48,196 nt of DNA from a virus: positions 1 to 48,196 of IMG/VR virus record IMGVR_UViG_3300028558_000038. One strand, written 5' to 3'. The notes below the pieces were generated by a model. That model worked only from the letters and a program-made list of their open reading frames with translations, ran no database searches and was not told the DNA's origin. The translations under genes were made by a program, and so were the position numbers. Shown one piece after another: positions 5,227-48,195 of the stretch. Every line of letters starts with the position of its first letter. Position 1 is the stretch's first letter.

Positions 5227-5241
5227 GTGCATATAATGCAC
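5227..5241. promoter_or_regulatory. Repressor operator (site 1)
   Basis: This is a 15-base inverted repeat, GTGCA-TATAA-TGCAC, lying 12 bases upstream of the Cro-like start codon. It matches the other sites at 5296, 5905 and 5939. An unpaired half-site, GTGCA, lies at 5261-5265 between this site and site 2. Confidence 0.7.
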
Positions 5242-5295
5242 GGTCCCGTCAACCCCGATTGTGCATATCGTTCCGTATCAGCGGTTAAAACCCGA

Positions 5296-5310
5296 GTGCA
5301 TAATGTGCAC
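5296..5310. promoter_or_regulatory. Repressor operator (site 2), abutting the repressor start codon
   Basis: The repeat is GTGCA-TAATG-TGCAC. Its last base touches the ATG at 5311, so a bound dimer would cover the translation start region of the repressor gene. This implies tight autoregulation, and probably a leaderless or very short-leader transcript. Confidence 0.7.
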
Positions 5311-5625
5311 ATGGGCAAAAAGCGCTGGAAACGAACGTATTTGAGGGAATGGCGCCTGCACGCCAAACTGACCCAGGCGCAAGCGGCCGAGGAACTCGGC
5401 TATGCCGACCACACCATGCTTTCGAAGGTCGAGCGTGCGGACGAAAAATATAGCCAGGAACTGCTTGAAAACGCCGCGGAACTTTATGGCTGCACCGTCT
5501 TTCAGCTTCTGTATCAGCGCCCCGAGGACGAGGAGAGCCCACATGCGATCATCGAGCGGCTGGATGATCGTCAGAAAAAGCGCGCCGTGCCTCACTTGAG
5601 GGCGATTCTGGACGAGCGGTCATGA
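5311..5625 (+). CDS. CI-like XRE-family repressor
   Basis: 104 aa from the ATG at 5311. Residues about 9-62 are an XRE helix-turn-helix (YLREWRLHAKLTQAQAAEEL followed by GYADHTMLSKVERA). There is no LexA-type protease domain, so any induction must work without RecA-driven self-cleavage. A short C-terminal helix (residues about 75-100) may mediate dimerisation. The alternative in-frame start at 5227 would translate through the operators and is unlikely. The stop overlaps the next gene as ATGA. This is the presumed prophage repressor that acts on the GTGCR-N5-YGCAC sites. Confidence 0.82.
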   Translation: MGKKRWKRTYLREWRLHAKLTQAQAAEELGYADHTMLSKVERADEKYSQELLENAAELYGCTVFQLLYQRPEDEESPHAIIERLDDRQKKRAVPHLRAILDERS

Positions 5626-5888
5626 CCCAAGCCGACATGTACCAGCGCTATCTAGATCAGCAGGCCCATATCGCCACAATTGCCGGCGTTGCGGCGCTGG
5701 CGGTCATCGGGGCGGCCGTACTCGTCGCCGCCATTCTGATCTGGCGGCGTCGCGCTCGCATCCTAGGGACGGCTGACGCCATGGTCGTCACCGCAGGCGC
5801 CCATGCCCTGCGCCTTGGCCGCTCCACCGGTGCCACCGCCGGCCACTACGCGCGCCGCATAACCGAAGCCGCCGACCGCTCCAAATAG
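5622..5888 (+). CDS. Membrane protein co-transcribed with the repressor
   Basis: 88 aa with one strong transmembrane helix at residues about 18-42 (GVAALAVIGAAVLVAAILIW) followed by a basic stop-transfer stretch (RRRAR) and an Ala/Gly-rich tail. It overlaps the repressor stop by four bases, so it is likely expressed in the lysogen. Genes in this place often encode superinfection-exclusion or other prophage-maintenance functions. That role is a guess from position. Confidence 0.65.
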   Translation: MTQADMYQRYLDQQAHIATIAGVAALAVIGAAVLVAAILIWRRRARILGTADAMVVTAGAHALRLGRSTGATAGHYARRITEAADRSK

Positions 5889-5904
5889 CCCCTCCACAGC
5901 TTGC

Positions 5905-5919
5905 GTGCGCATTATGCAC
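5905..5919. promoter_or_regulatory. Repressor operator (site 3)
   Basis: The repeat is GTGCG-CATTA-TGCAC, the exact reverse complement of site 4 at 5939. The two sites lie 19 bases apart and flank a TTGACA hexamer (5927-5932) that could be the -35 element of the rightward early promoter. No convincing -10 is seen at 16-18 bases from it. Confidence 0.65.
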
Positions 5920-5938
5920 ATTCCTGTTGACAGGTAAC

Positions 5939-5953
5939 GTGCATAATGCGCAC
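5939..5953. promoter_or_regulatory. Repressor operator (site 4), rightward early promoter region
   Basis: The repeat is GTGCA-TAATG-CGCAC. It lies between the TTGACA at 5927 and the first gene of the rightward early operon at 5983, so occupation would block the recombination and accessory operon. Confidence 0.65.
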
Positions 5954-7540: not shown

Positions 7541-8521
7541 TTGAATAGCGCTTTCCGTCCCGCCGCCCGCTCCGAAGCTAAGCCCCTCATCGGCCTCTAT
7601 GCCGAATCCGGCGCGGGGAAAACGTGGTCCGCGCTGTTGCTCGCGCGTGGCTTTGTCGGCCCGAACGGCAAAATCGGCATGATCGAAACCGAAGGCGGGC
7701 GCGGCGAGGCTAACGTCGGCCGCGAACCAGTCGGCGATTATCTCGTGCGGCCGATCCGCGGCAACTTCTCGCCCGAGGAATATGGCAAGGCGATCACGGA
7801 CGCCGAGAATGAGAAGCTCGACGCCCTGATCATCGACAGCGCAAGCCACGAATGGGAAGGCGCCGGCGGCGTGCTTGCGATGGCCGCAGCAAACGACGCG
7901 GCGGGCAAAAAAGGCGTGCTCGTCTGGCAGCAACCGAAGATCAGCCATCAGCGGAATTTCATGCTGCGCCTGATGCAGACGCCGATTCCGCTCGTGATCG
8001 TCTGCATGCGCGCGAAATACCCCATGGAGAAGAAAGGCAGCGATTGGGCGCGGTCGACCGTGCTGGAGCCAAAACAGGCTGACGACATCCTGTTCGAGAT
8101 GTTCGTGCACGGCTGGATCGACCAGGAGCACAAGCTCCATGTCACCAAATACACGCTTCCCGAGATCGCCAACGTCATCAAGGATGGCGAGAAGATCAGT
8201 ATCGACACCGGCGCCCGCCTTGCGGCATGGGCGCGCGGTGATAGTTCGCCGAACTCCCCGGCGAAGGCCGCCCCGGCATCATCCACCGCAAACCAGGGTG
8301 ACGCGAAACACGGGGCGGCCCCTATTGCAGACGAGACCGAAAGCGAAAGGCTGGCGCGTCTCGACGCCGAACTTGGCAACGCCGCGAATGACGGCACCGT
8401 CAAGCTACAGGAAAAATGGCGGACCTTGTCGCGCGACGATCAGGCGTCTTTGAAGGCCGCGCTTGATCGTCGCCACAAGGTCACGGCTGCCGAGGCGGAC
8501 GCAAGCAAGGCAGAGGCGTGA
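7541..8521 (+). CDS. Sak4-like RecA-fold ATPase (single-strand annealing)
   Basis: 326 aa. A TTG start at 7541 is indicated by a perfect GGAGG five bases upstream and by the N-terminal fit. The Walker A motif is AESGAGKT (residues 21-28) and the Walker B is DALIID (95-100). The core ends at about residue 235. A Ser/Pro/Ala-rich linker and a charged helical tail follow. Sak4 proteins are phage RecA-like ATPases that promote strand annealing, usually beside an exonuclease, as here. The stop overlaps the next GTG as GTGA. Confidence 0.82.
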   Translation: MNSAFRPAARSEAKPLIGLYAESGAGKTWSALLLARGFVGPNGKIGMIETEGGRGEANVGREPVGDYLVRPIRGNFSPEEYGKAITDAENEKLDALIIDSASHEWEGAGGVLAMAAANDAAGKKGVLVWQQPKISHQRNFMLRLMQTPIPLVIVCMRAKYPMEKKGSDWARSTVLEPKQADDILFEMFVHGWIDQEHKLHVTKYTLPEIANVIKDGEKISIDTGARLAAWARGDSSPNSPAKAAPASSTANQGDAKHGAAPIADETESERLARLDAELGNAANDGTVKLQEKWRTLSRDDQASLKAALDRRHKVTAAEADASKAEA

Positions 8522-9573
8522 GCGCCTCCATCACCATACTTTTCCAGATCAGCCGACGGGCATCGGCATCAACCGCGTGCGCGGCTGGCAACCGGGGACA
8601 CCGGCTGTGCCGAAAGCACGGAGCCTACGAAGTGAAGTTCTGCGAACTGAGTGAAATCTACCTGACCGACCCCCTGTCCGACTTCCACAAGAACCGTTAC
8701 GTCACCCGTCAGAGCTATCGCGGGAACATCCGCCGACTGAATGCTGATATTGGCGACCGGGATCTGAAGACCCTCACCATCCGCGACATTAAAGCCGCGC
8801 ACGCGATATGGGCGGCAGACGGCAAGCTCTCGATGGGCCACGGCCTCGTGACCATGCTGCGGGTCGTCATTGGTTTTGGCGCTGGCATTCTTGAAAACAA
8901 GGACTGCAAGCGCATCCGCGAGTCCCTGAGCGCAGTTAAATTCCAGAACGCCAAGCCGCGCGAGAACTGGATGAGCGCCGAGCAAGCTAAGGCCATCCGC
9001 GATGCTGCGGTCAATGCAGGCGACTATGCCATCGCTCTTGCCCAGGCGCTCCAATTCGATTGCGCTCTCCGGCAGAAAGACGTGATCGGAGAATGGTTGC
9101 CGCAAGGCTCCGATCCGCGCCCGTCGAAGATCGGAACGCTGTGGCTCAAGTGGGTTGGCGGCGTCACCCGCGAGGAAGTCGATGAAGATCTGATCCTTAC
9201 GCACGAGACGAGCAAGCGCGGCAAGGTTTTGTCGTTCCCGCTCAAGTCCTGTCCGATGGTCATGGAAGAATGGGGCTTCGCTCCGTCTAGCGGGCCGCTG
9301 GTGTTTGATCATGACACTGGGCTTCCGTTTCGCTCTTGGAATTATGCTCGACGCTGGCGGTTGTATGCCGAAAAGGCAGGCGTACCCAAGAGCGTCTGGA
9401 ACATGGACAGCCGCGCCGGCCGCATCACGACCGTTCTGGCGAAGGGCGTGCCGCTCGAAGACGCGCGCAAGCTTGCGGGGCATTCGCAGTCATCGACGAC
9501 GAGCCGCTATTCGCGCGGCACTGAGCAAGCAATCGCACGCGCGCTTGAGAGCGTGATGGTAGAGGCAGCCTAG
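8518..9573 (+). CDS. Tyrosine recombinase 1
   Basis: 351 aa from the GTG at 8518 (GTGA overlap). A second GTG at 8632 with GGAG upstream would remove the first 38 residues, which look unlike the rest. The catalytic domain shows Arg185 (CALRQKD), a Lys at about 236 (SKRGK), Arg299 (DSRAG), His322 (LAGHSQ) and Tyr331 (RYSRG). The usual HxxR box is DSR here, with Asp in place of the first His. Nucleophile and arginines are intact, so activity is plausible. It sits with the recombination genes, 8 kb from the second recombinase and the attP-like repeats. Its role may be dimer resolution or an alternative integration event. Confidence 0.82.
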   Translation: MSASITILFQISRRASASTACAAGNRGHRLCRKHGAYEVKFCELSEIYLTDPLSDFHKNRYVTRQSYRGNIRRLNADIGDRDLKTLTIRDIKAAHAIWAADGKLSMGHGLVTMLRVVIGFGAGILENKDCKRIRESLSAVKFQNAKPRENWMSAEQAKAIRDAAVNAGDYAIALAQALQFDCALRQKDVIGEWLPQGSDPRPSKIGTLWLKWVGGVTREEVDEDLILTHETSKRGKVLSFPLKSCPMVMEEWGFAPSSGPLVFDHDTGLPFRSWNYARRWRLYAEKAGVPKSVWNMDSRAGRITTVLAKGVPLEDARKLAGHSQSSTTSRYSRGTEQAIARALESVMVEAA

Positions 9574-13337: not shown

Positions 13338-13670
13338 ATGACTGAAACGACACAGGCTCCCGACCCGGCTTTGTTTTCGCGCAACGACAAACCGAGAGAA
13401 TACACCGCAGAATTTACCGTGCGCGGCGCGGTATCGTTTTCAATCAAAGCTGACAGCCCCGAAGATGCCAGACGCCAAGCTGAAGCCGAATTAGAGCGTA
13501 TGGAAAAGGAGGGTTACATCGAGATTGATGACGTGCAGGAAATTGAACTTTATCGCGTAGCAAAGGATCGTCCGATGTACCGCGTAACGCGCGAAGGCAA
13601 ATCGATGCAGGTATCTCATCTGCAAGTTGGCGATCTGCCGCGCGATCCTGACCCTGCCTACGGATTTTGA
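13338..13670 (+). CDS. Hypothetical protein
   Basis: 110 aa from the ATG at 13338, which has AGGAG seven bases upstream (an ATG at 13332 is too close to that site). Residues about 20-75 form a beta-alpha unit (EYTAEFTVRGAVSFSIKADS, then a charged helix) found in small DpnD/PcfM-like phage proteins. No function is known. Confidence 0.6.
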   Translation: MTETTQAPDPALFSRNDKPREYTAEFTVRGAVSFSIKADSPEDARRQAEAELERMEKEGYIEIDDVQEIELYRVAKDRPMYRVTREGKSMQVSHLQVGDLPRDPDPAYGF

Positions 13671-13698
13671 TGAGACGCAGTATCAATGGACGGACACG

Positions 13699-14022
13699 AT
13701 GCTAAAAAGCGCCAAAGATGTTCTGATAAACTGGGCGGACAATGCCCGCGCGCCCCCTCGCTTTCAAACGTGCGAGCAGGTCGCCGACAACATCCTCAAT
13801 TGGCTTCACGACAATGGTTACGTCGTAATACCAATTTCAGAGGTTGGACAACTTAACGGCTATATCCAACAGCGGGCGCGCGCCGGGTTGCGCCCCAACG
13901 TCGCGAAAGAGCCGATGCTGCAAATGTATCCCGATGCAGGTTTGAAAAAGCCGGTCAGACGCTTTGCCGACACGTTCAGCGCCACGACGCTTCTAAAGCA
14001 AATGTTTCGGCTCTCGAAATAG
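13699..14022 (+). CDS. Hypothetical protein
   Basis: 107 aa from the ATG at 13699. The first part resembles a small helical domain (KDVLINWADNARAPPRFQTC, then EQVADNILNWLHDNGYVVIP). The C-terminus is basic. The ORF is open 24 codons further upstream, but that would overlap the preceding gene. Followed by a 378-base stretch without a convincing gene. Confidence 0.5.
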   Translation: MLKSAKDVLINWADNARAPPRFQTCEQVADNILNWLHDNGYVVIPISEVGQLNGYIQQRARAGLRPNVAKEPMLQMYPDAGLKKPVRRFADTFSATTLLKQMFRLSK

Positions 14023-14081
14023 GCACACCCGCCATGATGCAGCCCGCAGAGAAAAGCAAAGCATCCCTGTTGCACCGAACT

Positions 14082-14369
14082 GTGGCCGTCCACGGAGCAG
14101 GCGCAGGTGACAGCCTTGACCCCGGTAGGCGCGGGAATGGCGAGGACGGAGAGTCGCGGAGGCCCGCGTGGCCGAGCCAGCCGGGAGGAAATGCCCGGCA
14201 AACAGCGGCAACAAAAATTGGATAAGCATAGCGGAGCCGCAGAAGCCATGAAGATGGCAAGCAAGCGTGGAGCAGCGAGGCGCATCGTTGCCGCCCCTTC
14301 TGGCGAGCGCGTCGAACTCGCCGGTTCTGCGGCTCCGCTATCTTGCCCAGACATTGTCAAGACAATGTC
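14082..14369 (+). ncRNA. Candidate structured RNA, about 290 nt
   Basis: The 14023-14400 gap holds no gene I trust but has at least seven ordered inverted repeats: GTGG/CCAC (14082-14093); CGCGGG 14130-14135 with CCCGCG 14163-14168, enclosing GCGA/TCGC; GCCGGG 14180-14185 with CCCGGC 14194-14199; a perfect 17-bp pair, 14228-14244 with 14325-14341; inside it GCCAT-GAAG-ATGGC (14245-14258) and GGCGAG/CTCGCC (14302-14307, 14317-14322); and GACATTGTC-AA-GACAATGTC (14350-14369). The 17-bp stem closing two hairpins gives a multibranch shape. It is GC-richer than its neighbours. No known RNA family is recognised and no U-run terminator is seen. The strand is assumed from the flanking operon. Confidence 0.45.
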
Positions 14370-14400
14370 GTTTGATGCGGTGTCTCAAGGAGATTGAAGG

Positions 14401-14583
14401 ATGAAAACAGCTTGGCTCTTGTTGGTCATGTACGGGCACAGCGGTTTCGCGATTCCGAACATCGCAACGGAACAGGAGTGCGAGCGCCTGTATGTCGAAA
14501 TGCGGGATAGCAACTGGGCTGCACCAGAAAGCTTCATCCGCAGCAATACTCACCGCTGCATTCAATACGTCGCTGCCAACTGA
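14401..14583 (+). CDS. Small secreted-type protein
   Basis: 60 aa with GGAG upstream. The N-terminus is a short hydrophobic segment (KTAWLLLVMYGHSGFA), perhaps a signal peptide, followed by a domain with two Cys (QECERLYVEM and HRCIQYV) that could form a disulphide. The family is unknown. Confidence 0.55.
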   Translation: MKTAWLLLVMYGHSGFAIPNIATEQECERLYVEMRDSNWAAPESFIRSNTHRCIQYVAAN

Positions 14584-14589
14584 CTTTCT

Positions 14590-14829
14590 ATGGATTACCG
14601 CATGCACTCCATCTTTTTAACACTTCGACAGCGCCGGCAGGAGATGCACCTGCGGCAAATCGATGTTGGCGAAATAGCTGGGTATGTAGAAACTCAGATA
14701 ACGCGGTGGGAGAGCGGCCGTGAAAATCCCAGGTTCCGCGCACTTTGTGATTGGTGCGATGCGCTTGGGCTGGAATTGACCGTAAAGCCAAAATCTGAAT
14801 CAACAAACATCACATTTGACGGAGATTGA
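14590..14829 (+). CDS. XRE-family helix-turn-helix protein
   Basis: 79 aa. Residues about 9-62 form an XRE domain (LRQRRQEMHLRQIDVGEIAG, then YVETQITRWESGRENPR). It lacks any further domain. It sits just after the structured-RNA candidate. It may be a second regulator for accessory genes. Confidence 0.7.
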   Translation: MDYRMHSIFLTLRQRRQEMHLRQIDVGEIAGYVETQITRWESGRENPRFRALCDWCDALGLELTVKPKSESTNITFDGD

Positions 14830-16885: not shown

Positions 16886-17242
16886 ATGACCGATCTCGCG
16901 CACACCATTGTCACCTTGCCGGCCGACGCGGCGGTGTACCTATCGACGATGGAACTGTACGCGGCGATGAACCTTCCGGAGAAGGTCGGCCGCCGTCTCG
17001 TGCGCGAACTCAGCAAAGCCGCCCCTGGCCGCGCCCCCTTTCCACAGCCTGACCCGTTGACCGATCGCTGGTTTTGGCCTGCCGTTCATCAGTACCTTTT
17101 GCGCTACAACCGCGTGCTGCTATCAAAGCCAACGCCACCGGCACCGCCGGTGGCACAATGGCAGGAGAACTTCCATGCCCCCGCCGCGCCCGCAAACTCC
17201 AATGAACGTCGCCGTCCCCGGACTAAAGTGGCGGCCACGTAA
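16886..17242 (+). CDS. Excisionase-like protein upstream of integrase
   Basis: 118 aa. Residues about 15-75 (AAVYLSTMELYAAMNLPEKV, then VRELSKAAPGRAPFPQPDPL and DRWFWPAVHQYL) follow the pattern of small winged-helix recombination directionality factors. The C-terminal 40 residues are Pro/Ala-rich and overlap the start of the integrase gene by 68 bases. The excisionase role is inferred from fold pattern and position. Confidence 0.6.
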   Translation: MTDLAHTIVTLPADAAVYLSTMELYAAMNLPEKVGRRLVRELSKAAPGRAPFPQPDPLTDRWFWPAVHQYLLRYNRVLLSKPTPPAPPVAQWQENFHAPAAPANSNERRRPRTKVAAT

Positions 17243-18482
17243 AGACGGCTGGACTGCATACTGGGTTGCCCGGGACGACGCAGCGAAGCGAAACTTCCAG
17301 ATCAAGTCGCGGCAGCTATGGCCGCCGAGCGATGGCACAGCCGGCGGTGAGCCGAGCGCCGACGAGTGGCAGGCCATTTCTATTACCTGCGAGGATCTGC
17401 AAGACGAGATGCTGACGTGGCTTCGCGGTGGTGCGGCAGTGAGCGGCGATCCGGCGGCGATGTTCGATGACACGGTTACGTCGCTGATCCGCATCTACGA
17501 GACCGATCCCGACAGCCCGTACAAGGAACTCCGCTTTCACACCGCCAAAAGCTACGATAGCAAGAACCGTACGCTGATCGCGCAGATCGGTGGCGCGCGC
17601 CCTTCCCTCCTCACCTTCCGCGACTTCAAGCGATGGTACGCCGGCTTCCGTGAGCCAGCCGCCGCTGGCAAGCCTGAGCGCGTCGCGCGCGCTCATGGGC
17701 TGATGACGCAGATTAGGTTGATCTTCGCCTATGGCGTGCTGCTCGAACTTCCGGACTGTGCCCGCCTGAAGGCCGTCCTCGATGGAATGGAGTTCGAGAA
17801 CCCGAAGAAGCGAAAGACGCTCGTTACCGCCGAGCAGGCAATCGCAATCCGTGCAGAGGCGCACCGCCGTGGTCGCCCGTCGATCGCGCTCGCCCAGGCG
17901 CTCGAATTCGAACTGGGCTGCCGACAGAAGGATGCAATCGGGGAGTGGATACCGCAGAGCGAGCCCGGCCTATCCGACATCACCGAGGGCGGCGATAAGG
18001 CGATGCACGGCTTCCATTGGAAGAACGTGTCGCCAGATATGATCCTGACGCACCGTCTGAGCAAATCGCTGCGCGGCCGCAAGGCGACGGTCTCTGCCGA
18101 ATCCGGTCTCGAGAAGCGCTGGAACCTGTCGCTCTATCCGATGATCATGGAGGAGCTTGCGCTGATCCCGATCGAGCAGCGCGTCGACGCGATGGTCAAG
18201 GCCGAGCATACCGGCCTGCCCTGGCGGCACAAGTATTTCCAGCAGCACTGGCGCGAGATCGCCACGGCCGTCGGTGTGCCGCTTAACGTGCAGAACCGCG
18301 ACAGCCGAGCCGGCGCAGCGACCGAAGGCGAGAACGCCGGTGCCGATATTGAGACGATCAGGCACGGCCTCGGTCACTCGAAACCGGAGACGACGCGCAT
18401 CTACACGCGCACCGCCGACGAGCAGACCGCGAAGCTCGCTACGATCCGCGCCACGTCGCGAAACAAGCCCGGAACGAAATAG
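17175..18482 (+). CDS. int: Tyrosine recombinase 2, probable phage integrase
   Basis: 435 aa with AGGAG before the ATG. N-terminal arm-binding region (PGLKWRPRKDGWTAYWVARD), core-binding domain (about 95-200), catalytic domain with Arg250 (CRQKDAIGEW), Arg378 (DSRAG), His401 (LGHSKPET) and Tyr410 (RIYTR). As in recombinase 1, the first His of the HxxR box is replaced (DSR), so the two are the same subfamily. It is placed between an excisionase-like gene and an attP-like repeat cluster, which makes it the main integrase candidate. Confidence 0.87.
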   Translation: MPPPRPQTPMNVAVPGLKWRPRKDGWTAYWVARDDAAKRNFQIKSRQLWPPSDGTAGGEPSADEWQAISITCEDLQDEMLTWLRGGAAVSGDPAAMFDDTVTSLIRIYETDPDSPYKELRFHTAKSYDSKNRTLIAQIGGARPSLLTFRDFKRWYAGFREPAAAGKPERVARAHGLMTQIRLIFAYGVLLELPDCARLKAVLDGMEFENPKKRKTLVTAEQAIAIRAEAHRRGRPSIALAQALEFELGCRQKDAIGEWIPQSEPGLSDITEGGDKAMHGFHWKNVSPDMILTHRLSKSLRGRKATVSAESGLEKRWNLSLYPMIMEELALIPIEQRVDAMVKAEHTGLPWRHKYFQQHWREIATAVGVPLNVQNRDSRAGAATEGENAGADIETIRHGLGHSKPETTRIYTRTADEQTAKLATIRATSRNKPGTK

Positions 18483-18650
18483 GGAACGTGATGGGGAATG
18501 ATAGGGAAAGAATGCCAGCGCGATCAGTGACTTATTCACCTTGAGCCGTCACGGATCATAAGACCCAAGTTATTGATGAATAAGGTATCCGTTCCCTATC
18601 ACGGGTAGGGTTGCGGCGGCTAGCGGCGTATGCAGCCAATCCGTTCCCTA
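18480..18650. other. Candidate attP with integrase arm-type repeats
   Basis: The 165 bases between convergent int and the lysis module hold four copies of TAGGGAA: two in plus orientation (18480, 18502) and two inverted as GTTCCCTA (18591, 18643). The latter two share the 12-mer ATCCGTTCCCTA. Between them lies an inverted pair CTTATTCA (18531-18538) and TGAATAAG (18577-18584). Arms on both sides of a core are the usual form of attP for tyrosine integrases. The core itself cannot be named without the host attB. Confidence 0.55.
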
Positions 18651-19184
18651 CCGCGCGGCAGCGTATCGCGGTCCCGCCCTTGGATCGACAAACGTATAGC
18701 CGCGCAGATCGCGTACATGCTGGCGGGTCAGTCCGCCGCCGGAGTTGCTGTCGTGCACCAGCCACGCGCCGGGTTCGCCGCCGATAATGACCGCGACATG
18801 GTGCGGTCGGACGGCTACGGTCCCGATCGCGGCGTGGGTGCGGGGGAAGCGATACCAGGCTCGAGCTGGCCAAAGGTCTCGGCGATTCTCATTGAAAACG
18901 TAGAGCGATGCGCCGCATCCGCAATACGCATGTGGGCATCCCTGTGGCCTACCCCCAACCACAGTGCCGCTGCCAGCAACACTGCCACGATGAACACCAC
19001 GCCCCATCCGAACGTCCCTACGCGCGCGTGACGAGCGCGTAGGAGCAATCTGTCTCGCTCCGCTTTCCGCAGTTCCGAATCCGTGAGGGTCATAAGTCAC
19101 CTGCTGGCTGATGCGCGCGTTCGTTGAGGTGGTGAGCGCAAGCACGATTGCCGCGCCCGCGAGGGCAACGAGGAACGGTTTCAT
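18648..19184 (-). CDS. Exported protein, conserved CGC-x-ASL family
   Basis: 178 aa from the ATG at 19184. A signal peptide (KPFLVALAGAAIVLALTTST) is followed by a low-complexity linker and a conserved C-terminal part (CPHAYCGCGASLYVFNENRR, RAWYRFPRTHAAIGTVAVRP, VHDSNSGGGLTRQHVRDLRG) that I recall from Bradyrhizobium and phage hypothetical proteins. The Cys and the two His suggest a CHAP/NlpC-type papain-like fold, but this is not certain. It is last in the lysis module. The linker region overlaps another ORF. Confidence 0.7.
   Translation of the reverse strand: MKPFLVALAGAAIVLALTTSTNARISQQVTYDPHGFGTAESGARQIAPTRSSRARRDVRMGRGVHRGSVAGSGTVVGGRPQGCPHAYCGCGASLYVFNENRRDLWPARAWYRFPRTHAAIGTVAVRPHHVAVIIGGEPGAWLVHDSNSGGGLTRQHVRDLRGYTFVDPRAGPRYAAAR
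18815..19093 (-). CDS. Possible nested membrane protein
   Basis: 92 aa read in another frame inside the exported-protein gene. The ATG at 19093 has AGGTG five bases upstream, better than that of the host gene. There is a charged N-terminal helix (DSELRKAERDRLLLRAR) and one transmembrane helix (GVVFIVAVLLAAALWLGVG). Rz1-type nesting in a lysis region is known from other phages, but a separate spanin pair is present here, so the role is unknown. Confidence 0.42.
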   Translation of the reverse strand: MTLTDSELRKAERDRLLLRARHARVGTFGWGVVFIVAVLLAAALWLGVGHRDAHMRIADAAHRSTFSMRIAETFGQLEPGIASPAPTPRSGP

Positions 19185-47849: not shown

Positions 47850-48113
47850 CTATTCAGCCAGCGCCGCAGCAATCATGACGGGGAAGGATTCGGCGACGTC
47901 GTAATCATATGGATATTGGCGGCGCGCGGCAGCGACCATCGCGTCAGTCGGCTCCCTCATCGCGTTGATGGCAGCGCGGGCGTATCCCTCCCAAACTTCA
48001 TCACCGGGCATCTCGACGCCCGTCGCGCCGAAGGGTTTCTCTGCGGCCTCCGAGATAACCAGCCGGAAGCGGGCTTGCAGCGCGGCAGACACACGCTCAA
48101 TCATCGTTGTCAT
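47850..48113 (-). CDS. Hypothetical protein, end of leftward early operon
   Basis: 87 aa. The segment MPGDEVWEGYARAAINAMRE is typical of small hypothetical proteins of proteobacterial phages. On the circular map its ATG overlaps the stop of the gene at 41..526 (ATGA), so it is the last gene of the leftward early operon. It converges on the GIY-YIG gene with two bases between stops. Confidence 0.68.
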   Translation of the reverse strand: MTTMIERVSAALQARFRLVISEAAEKPFGATGVEMPGDEVWEGYARAAINAMREPTDAMVAAARRQYPYDYDVAESFPVMIAAALAE

Positions 48114-48195
48114 TTTGCCTCACATTCGATCTGAACAAGGCGCGGCATGTTCGCCGCCAACTTGGCGCGCCTTGTTCGACCGCTGGCGCGGCCTG
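48070..48195. repeat. Direct terminal repeat, right copy
   Basis: Identical to bases 1-126. The final base, 48196, is t where base 127 is c, so the copies part exactly at the window end. This could reflect a variant at an assembly branch point. Confidence 0.9.

Follow-up and report, generated by a model that had tools for sequence, protein, structure and literature searches.

Operator palindromes belong to phage repressors of the Cro/CI/XRE type, and intercistronic mRNA hairpins are stems through which polycistronic transcripts are stabilised or processed. MITE-like mobile elements, in turn, are bounded by terminal inverted repeats. A different kind of intergenic element is represented by GOLLD and ROOL, the large structured phage and bacterial RNAs outlined in PMC12286853. 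We analysed a 378-base gap (14023..14400) between two rightward genes of a 48,196-base virus record, here called the window, that recalls each of these systems in part. Like GOLLD and ROOL as outlined there, it is an intergenic stretch with a proposed structured RNA, but it is far smaller, has one significant stem only and comes without an Rfam match or a conserved family. The likeness to Cro/CI/XRE-type operators is a short palindrome without mismatches just upstream of an operon with an HTH regulator gene; the palindrome here is nevertheless single copy and no orthologous regulator was found, leaving it a candidate operator only. As with intercistronic mRNA hairpins, a long stem is positioned between co-directional genes, upstream of a ribosome-binding site, although, at 80 nt, its loop is on the large side for a stem of this kind and the hairpin is a predicted one. 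Finally, perfect inverted repeats delimit a short unit in the manner of MITE-like elements, yet this unit has no further copies in the window or in the species-genome collection and no clear target-site duplication. For the gap, an ordinary control or spacer region is a more probable reading than a new RNA class.

The first 126 bases of the window are identical to 48070-48195, and because they recur at 48070 the record is very likely a complete phage genome assembly, probably circularly closed. An inverted repeat, GAACAAGGCGCG / CGCGCCTTGTTC, with a spacer of 21 bases is located inside these repeated ends (64-108 and 48133-48177). Genes point rightward from about 4.5 to 18.5 kb, while the structural genes are leftward. 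The integrase (17175-18482) shares 33-35% identity with relatives in Bradyrhizobium and Sinorhizobium phages; many Hyphomicrobiales genomes also contain relatives. Judging from these gene relatives, the phage probably infects Hyphomicrobiales (rhizobia-like bacteria). A second frame, 8518-9573, matches the same integrase family, phrog_1, its residues 41-190 aligning to the middle of the profile and those of 17175-18482 to the C-terminal part. The phage may carry two tyrosine-recombinase-like genes, or 8518-9573 may have a different function. Just 3' of the integrase gene lie an inverted repeat, ATAGGGAACG / CGTTCCCTAT (18479-18488, 18590-18599), and a direct repeat, ATCCGTTCCCTA (18587-18603 / 18639-18655), where a phage attachment site could be. 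Four near-identical palindromic sites of the GTGCGCATTATGCAC type, with 0-3 mismatches (5227-5241, 5296-5310, 5905-5919 and 5939-5953), surround an XRE-type regulator gene (5227-5625). These sites are a probable repressor operator set and immunity region.

Within the rightward block from 9.6 to 18.5 kb, the 378-base gap is the largest, the other gaps ranging from −88 to 140 bases. It contains no confident gene, and the description of a gene-poor gap in a tightly packed region, given by the first-pass annotation, is borne out. The same annotation had called the stretch GC-richer than its neighbours; its GC content (62% for the gap, 64% for 14082-14369) exceeds that of most flanking genes but is near the window-wide value of 60%. 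Directly downstream, as had also been noted, are a small secreted-type protein and an XRE regulator. The first (14401..14583, + strand) has 60 amino acids, a hydrophobic N-terminus and a good ribosome-binding site, AAGGAG, ahead of it, and is without family match or relative. The second (14590..14829, + strand), a 79-amino-acid XRE/HTH regulator matching Pfam HTH_31 and HTH_3, starts 6 bases after the end of the first. With neighbour genes as bait, no relatives of genes 13699, 14401 or 14590 were found in viral contigs. Gene 14831 has relatives in two viral records, L125 and L298; the repeat element described below is absent from both, and other genes stand upstream of their 14831 relatives. 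No tRNA or tmRNA was found.

One open frame of 96 codons with a GTG start (14107..14397, + strand) crosses the region. A small protein gene, encoded by this frame or by a shorter version from an internal ATG, would fit a frame that is open throughout, scores best across much of the gap and stops 3 bases short of the following ATG, in the manner of neighbouring genes. However, shuffling yields an open stretch of this length on that strand in 16% of cases, and the codon score is neutral, near 0. A neutral codon score taken alone is still compatible with coding, because the adjacent XRE gene also scores near zero. The GC content by codon position (0.67/0.59/0.59) lacks the low second position typical of most genes of this phage, and the frame has no match in Pfam, PHROGs, NCBIfam, phages or plasmids. 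Searches of 249 genomes gave two weak matches, which crossed stop codons and were rejected, leaving the frame without a family or credible homologue. We consider the frame unlikely to be a gene, and a small protein in either form is a slim prospect. Nor was the stretch found to be part of a conserved protein gene or of a host insertion sequence, and no homologue lacking compensatory changes turned up; any of these would have spoken against a structured RNA.

At least seven ordered stems had been proposed for the region, and comparison with dinucleotide-shuffled controls suggested as a check. Only 14215-14372 folds better than its shuffles, with z −6.3 on the + strand and −6.2 on the reverse strand, and the other stems are what chance would produce. 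The left half shows no excess (z +0.6 for 14023-14210 and −0.4 for 14082-14227), and neither does the 80-nt interior of the repeat (z −0.5). All folding excess in the gap is within 14215-14372 and consists of the palindrome and a 17-bp inverted repeat that extends imperfectly outward. The fold indicates no strand and leaves DNA-level roles equally open, because the reverse strand folds as well. The case for a multi-stem RNA reduces to one 17-bp hairpin and one palindrome, which may act as DNA no less than as RNA.

The arms of the perfect 17-bp inverted repeat are ATAGCGGAGCCGCAGAA (14228..14244, + strand) and TTCTGCGGCTCCGCTAT (14325..14341, + strand). They enclose a loop of 80 nt (14245..14324, + strand) that holds a GAAG-capped 5-bp hairpin, GCCAT-GAAG-ATGGC, at 14245-14258. 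The arms, their exact spacing and the small hairpin all agree with the first-pass annotation; the interior, which it described as a multibranch loop, folds no better than shuffles. This is the longest perfect inverted repeat in the window. With a spacer of up to 120 bases, no 17-bp repeat arose in 300 dinucleotide shuffles of the window, the longest being 16 bp, reached once. Related viral loci totalling 2.39 Mb contain 11 inverted repeats of at least 17 bp, several of them clustered in one locus, a rate of roughly one of this length per 200 kb. The repeat exceeds chance for this sequence; phage DNA yields such repeats now and then, making it uncommon but not extraordinary. Among related viral contigs, L133 has a 32-bp perfect inverted repeat (5783-5916) and L251 a cluster of 19-25 bp repeats (13583-13876), both stronger than the repeat here. 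A search for the arms as copies of a repeated operator revealed no further copies.

Perfect terminal arms that flank an interior without excess structure could also mark a MITE-like mobile-element remnant, a 114-bp unit (14228-14341) with 17-bp terminal inverted repeats. Its absence from the records that share a neighbouring gene would be in keeping with such an origin. However, the window contains no second copy, and inspection together with a repeat listing revealed no clear target-site duplication at 14227/14342. When one arm was used as an exact pattern in viral contigs, 48 loci were recovered, in none of which (0/48) was a partner arm nearby, and arms paired at that spacing occur nowhere in the species-genome collection. 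A remnant of this kind is an improbable source of the repeat.

The searches for relatives of the region as a whole were likewise negative. Rfam 15 gave no match at gathering score and only chance-level matches (E about 5-8) at relaxed thresholds, in agreement with the earlier statement that no known RNA class was recognised. By blastn, no homologue of the region turned up among 50,697 phage and 72,556 plasmid records; at a limit of 10, matches were confined to E about 7, and the annotated ones among the matches listed lay in unrelated phage genes. Searches by tblastn gave no homologue either. DNA matches in 22, 397 and 392 Hyphomicrobiales genomes were rejected as chance, being no longer than 48 bases, aligned to scattered pieces of the region and located in long open frames; these searches scored a few first-look candidates per genome in sampled groups and could miss a rare homologue. 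A single-sequence covariance model gave chance-level matches only over viral relatives, prophage loci and 199 genomes, the related viral loci searched numbering about 165. One weak match of this model, in L125, was rejected; it falls inside a protein frame, and many of its pairs are broken. In a literature search, the titles and abstracts contained no description of such an element.

These results bear directly on a reading in line with the first-pass annotation: a separate small structured RNA, about 130-170 nt long, with the 17-bp stem closing it and its end near the palindrome. The strong predicted fold of 14215-14372, in a stretch without a confident gene, is what such an RNA would show. 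Against it, the folding excess amounts to one stem plus the palindrome, and neither an Rfam match nor a structural homologue accompanies it. A consensus scan of the + strand, poorly suited to alphaproteobacteria, detected no promoter-like or terminator-like match at the expected ends. We judge an independent RNA decidedly unlikely; that it would be a phage small RNA of about 130-170 nt from an undescribed family, with the host or the neighbouring exported-protein/XRE cassette as its target, is very improbable. Beyond one hairpin, nothing supports a new RNA class.

The gap could instead be a neutral spacer, left from gene loss or exchange, in which the perfect repeat arose through a recent template-switch event and has no particular role. 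Several observations are compatible with this origin: no homologue turned up in any collection searched, the element is missing from L125 and L298, the interior and left half are without excess structure, and related viral loci contain inverted repeats of this length at the rate given above. Yet 378 useless bases would be odd in a tightly packed block, and the perfect repeat and adjoining palindrome are located where regulation would be expected. A neutral spacer is a real, if doubtful, possibility. For the perfect repeat itself, a neutral origin such as template switching is nearly as likely as the leader reading set out below.

The palindrome is 20 bp in length (14350..14369), arranged 9+2+9 as GACATTGTC-AA-GACAATGTC, and is either a candidate operator or, as RNA, an 8-bp hairpin. 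It had been described as a terminal 9-bp stem with AA; the palindrome is present, but as RNA it forms an 8-bp stem around a 4-nt loop, because a 2-nt loop cannot close. An XRE/HTH operator requires a dyad-symmetric site, and the palindrome provides one upstream of gene 14401 and the XRE gene 14590. Its copy number in the window is 1. In Hyphomicrobiales genomes it is not a recurrent site, with no match at fewer than 2 mismatches, and the search for orthologues or close relatives of XRE gene 14590, whose upstream regions could be compared, found none.

Given the observed repeats and where they lie, the order of the genes, and a remainder of the gap that has no extra structure, we tentatively favour the gap as the leader of a small accessory cassette, composed of the 60-amino-acid signal-peptide-like protein and the XRE regulator, in a rightward early operon, with the palindrome as operator and the repeat as hairpin. 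The ribosome-binding site follows the palindrome after about 17 bases, and either the XRE regulator of the cassette itself or another HTH protein would bind the palindrome as its operator. Read-through of the gap is expected, because the neighbouring genes share direction and nearly touch; the 17-bp repeat would then form a hairpin in the early transcript, which may insulate or stabilise the downstream message. The sole folding excess is in the 3' part of the gap, beside a gene start with a good ribosome-binding site, and palindromes near regulator genes fit this phage, because another XRE gene sits among operator-like palindromes (5227-5953). On the other hand, the + strand has no promoter-like site in the consensus scan, whose consensus suits alphaproteobacteria poorly, and the single-copy palindrome, not recurrent in Hyphomicrobiales, belongs to a regulator with no close relative for upstream comparison. 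The leader reading also leaves the left 200 bases of the gap without explanation.

This case shows how a single long inverted repeat can lend an entire stretch the look of a multi-stem RNA, and why shuffle controls should be run separately for every sub-region. Were the hairpin expressed as RNA, the phage would encode an orphan RNA next to a testable cassette. In practical terms, the locus is of use as the candidate operator and leader for an XRE cassette not yet characterised.
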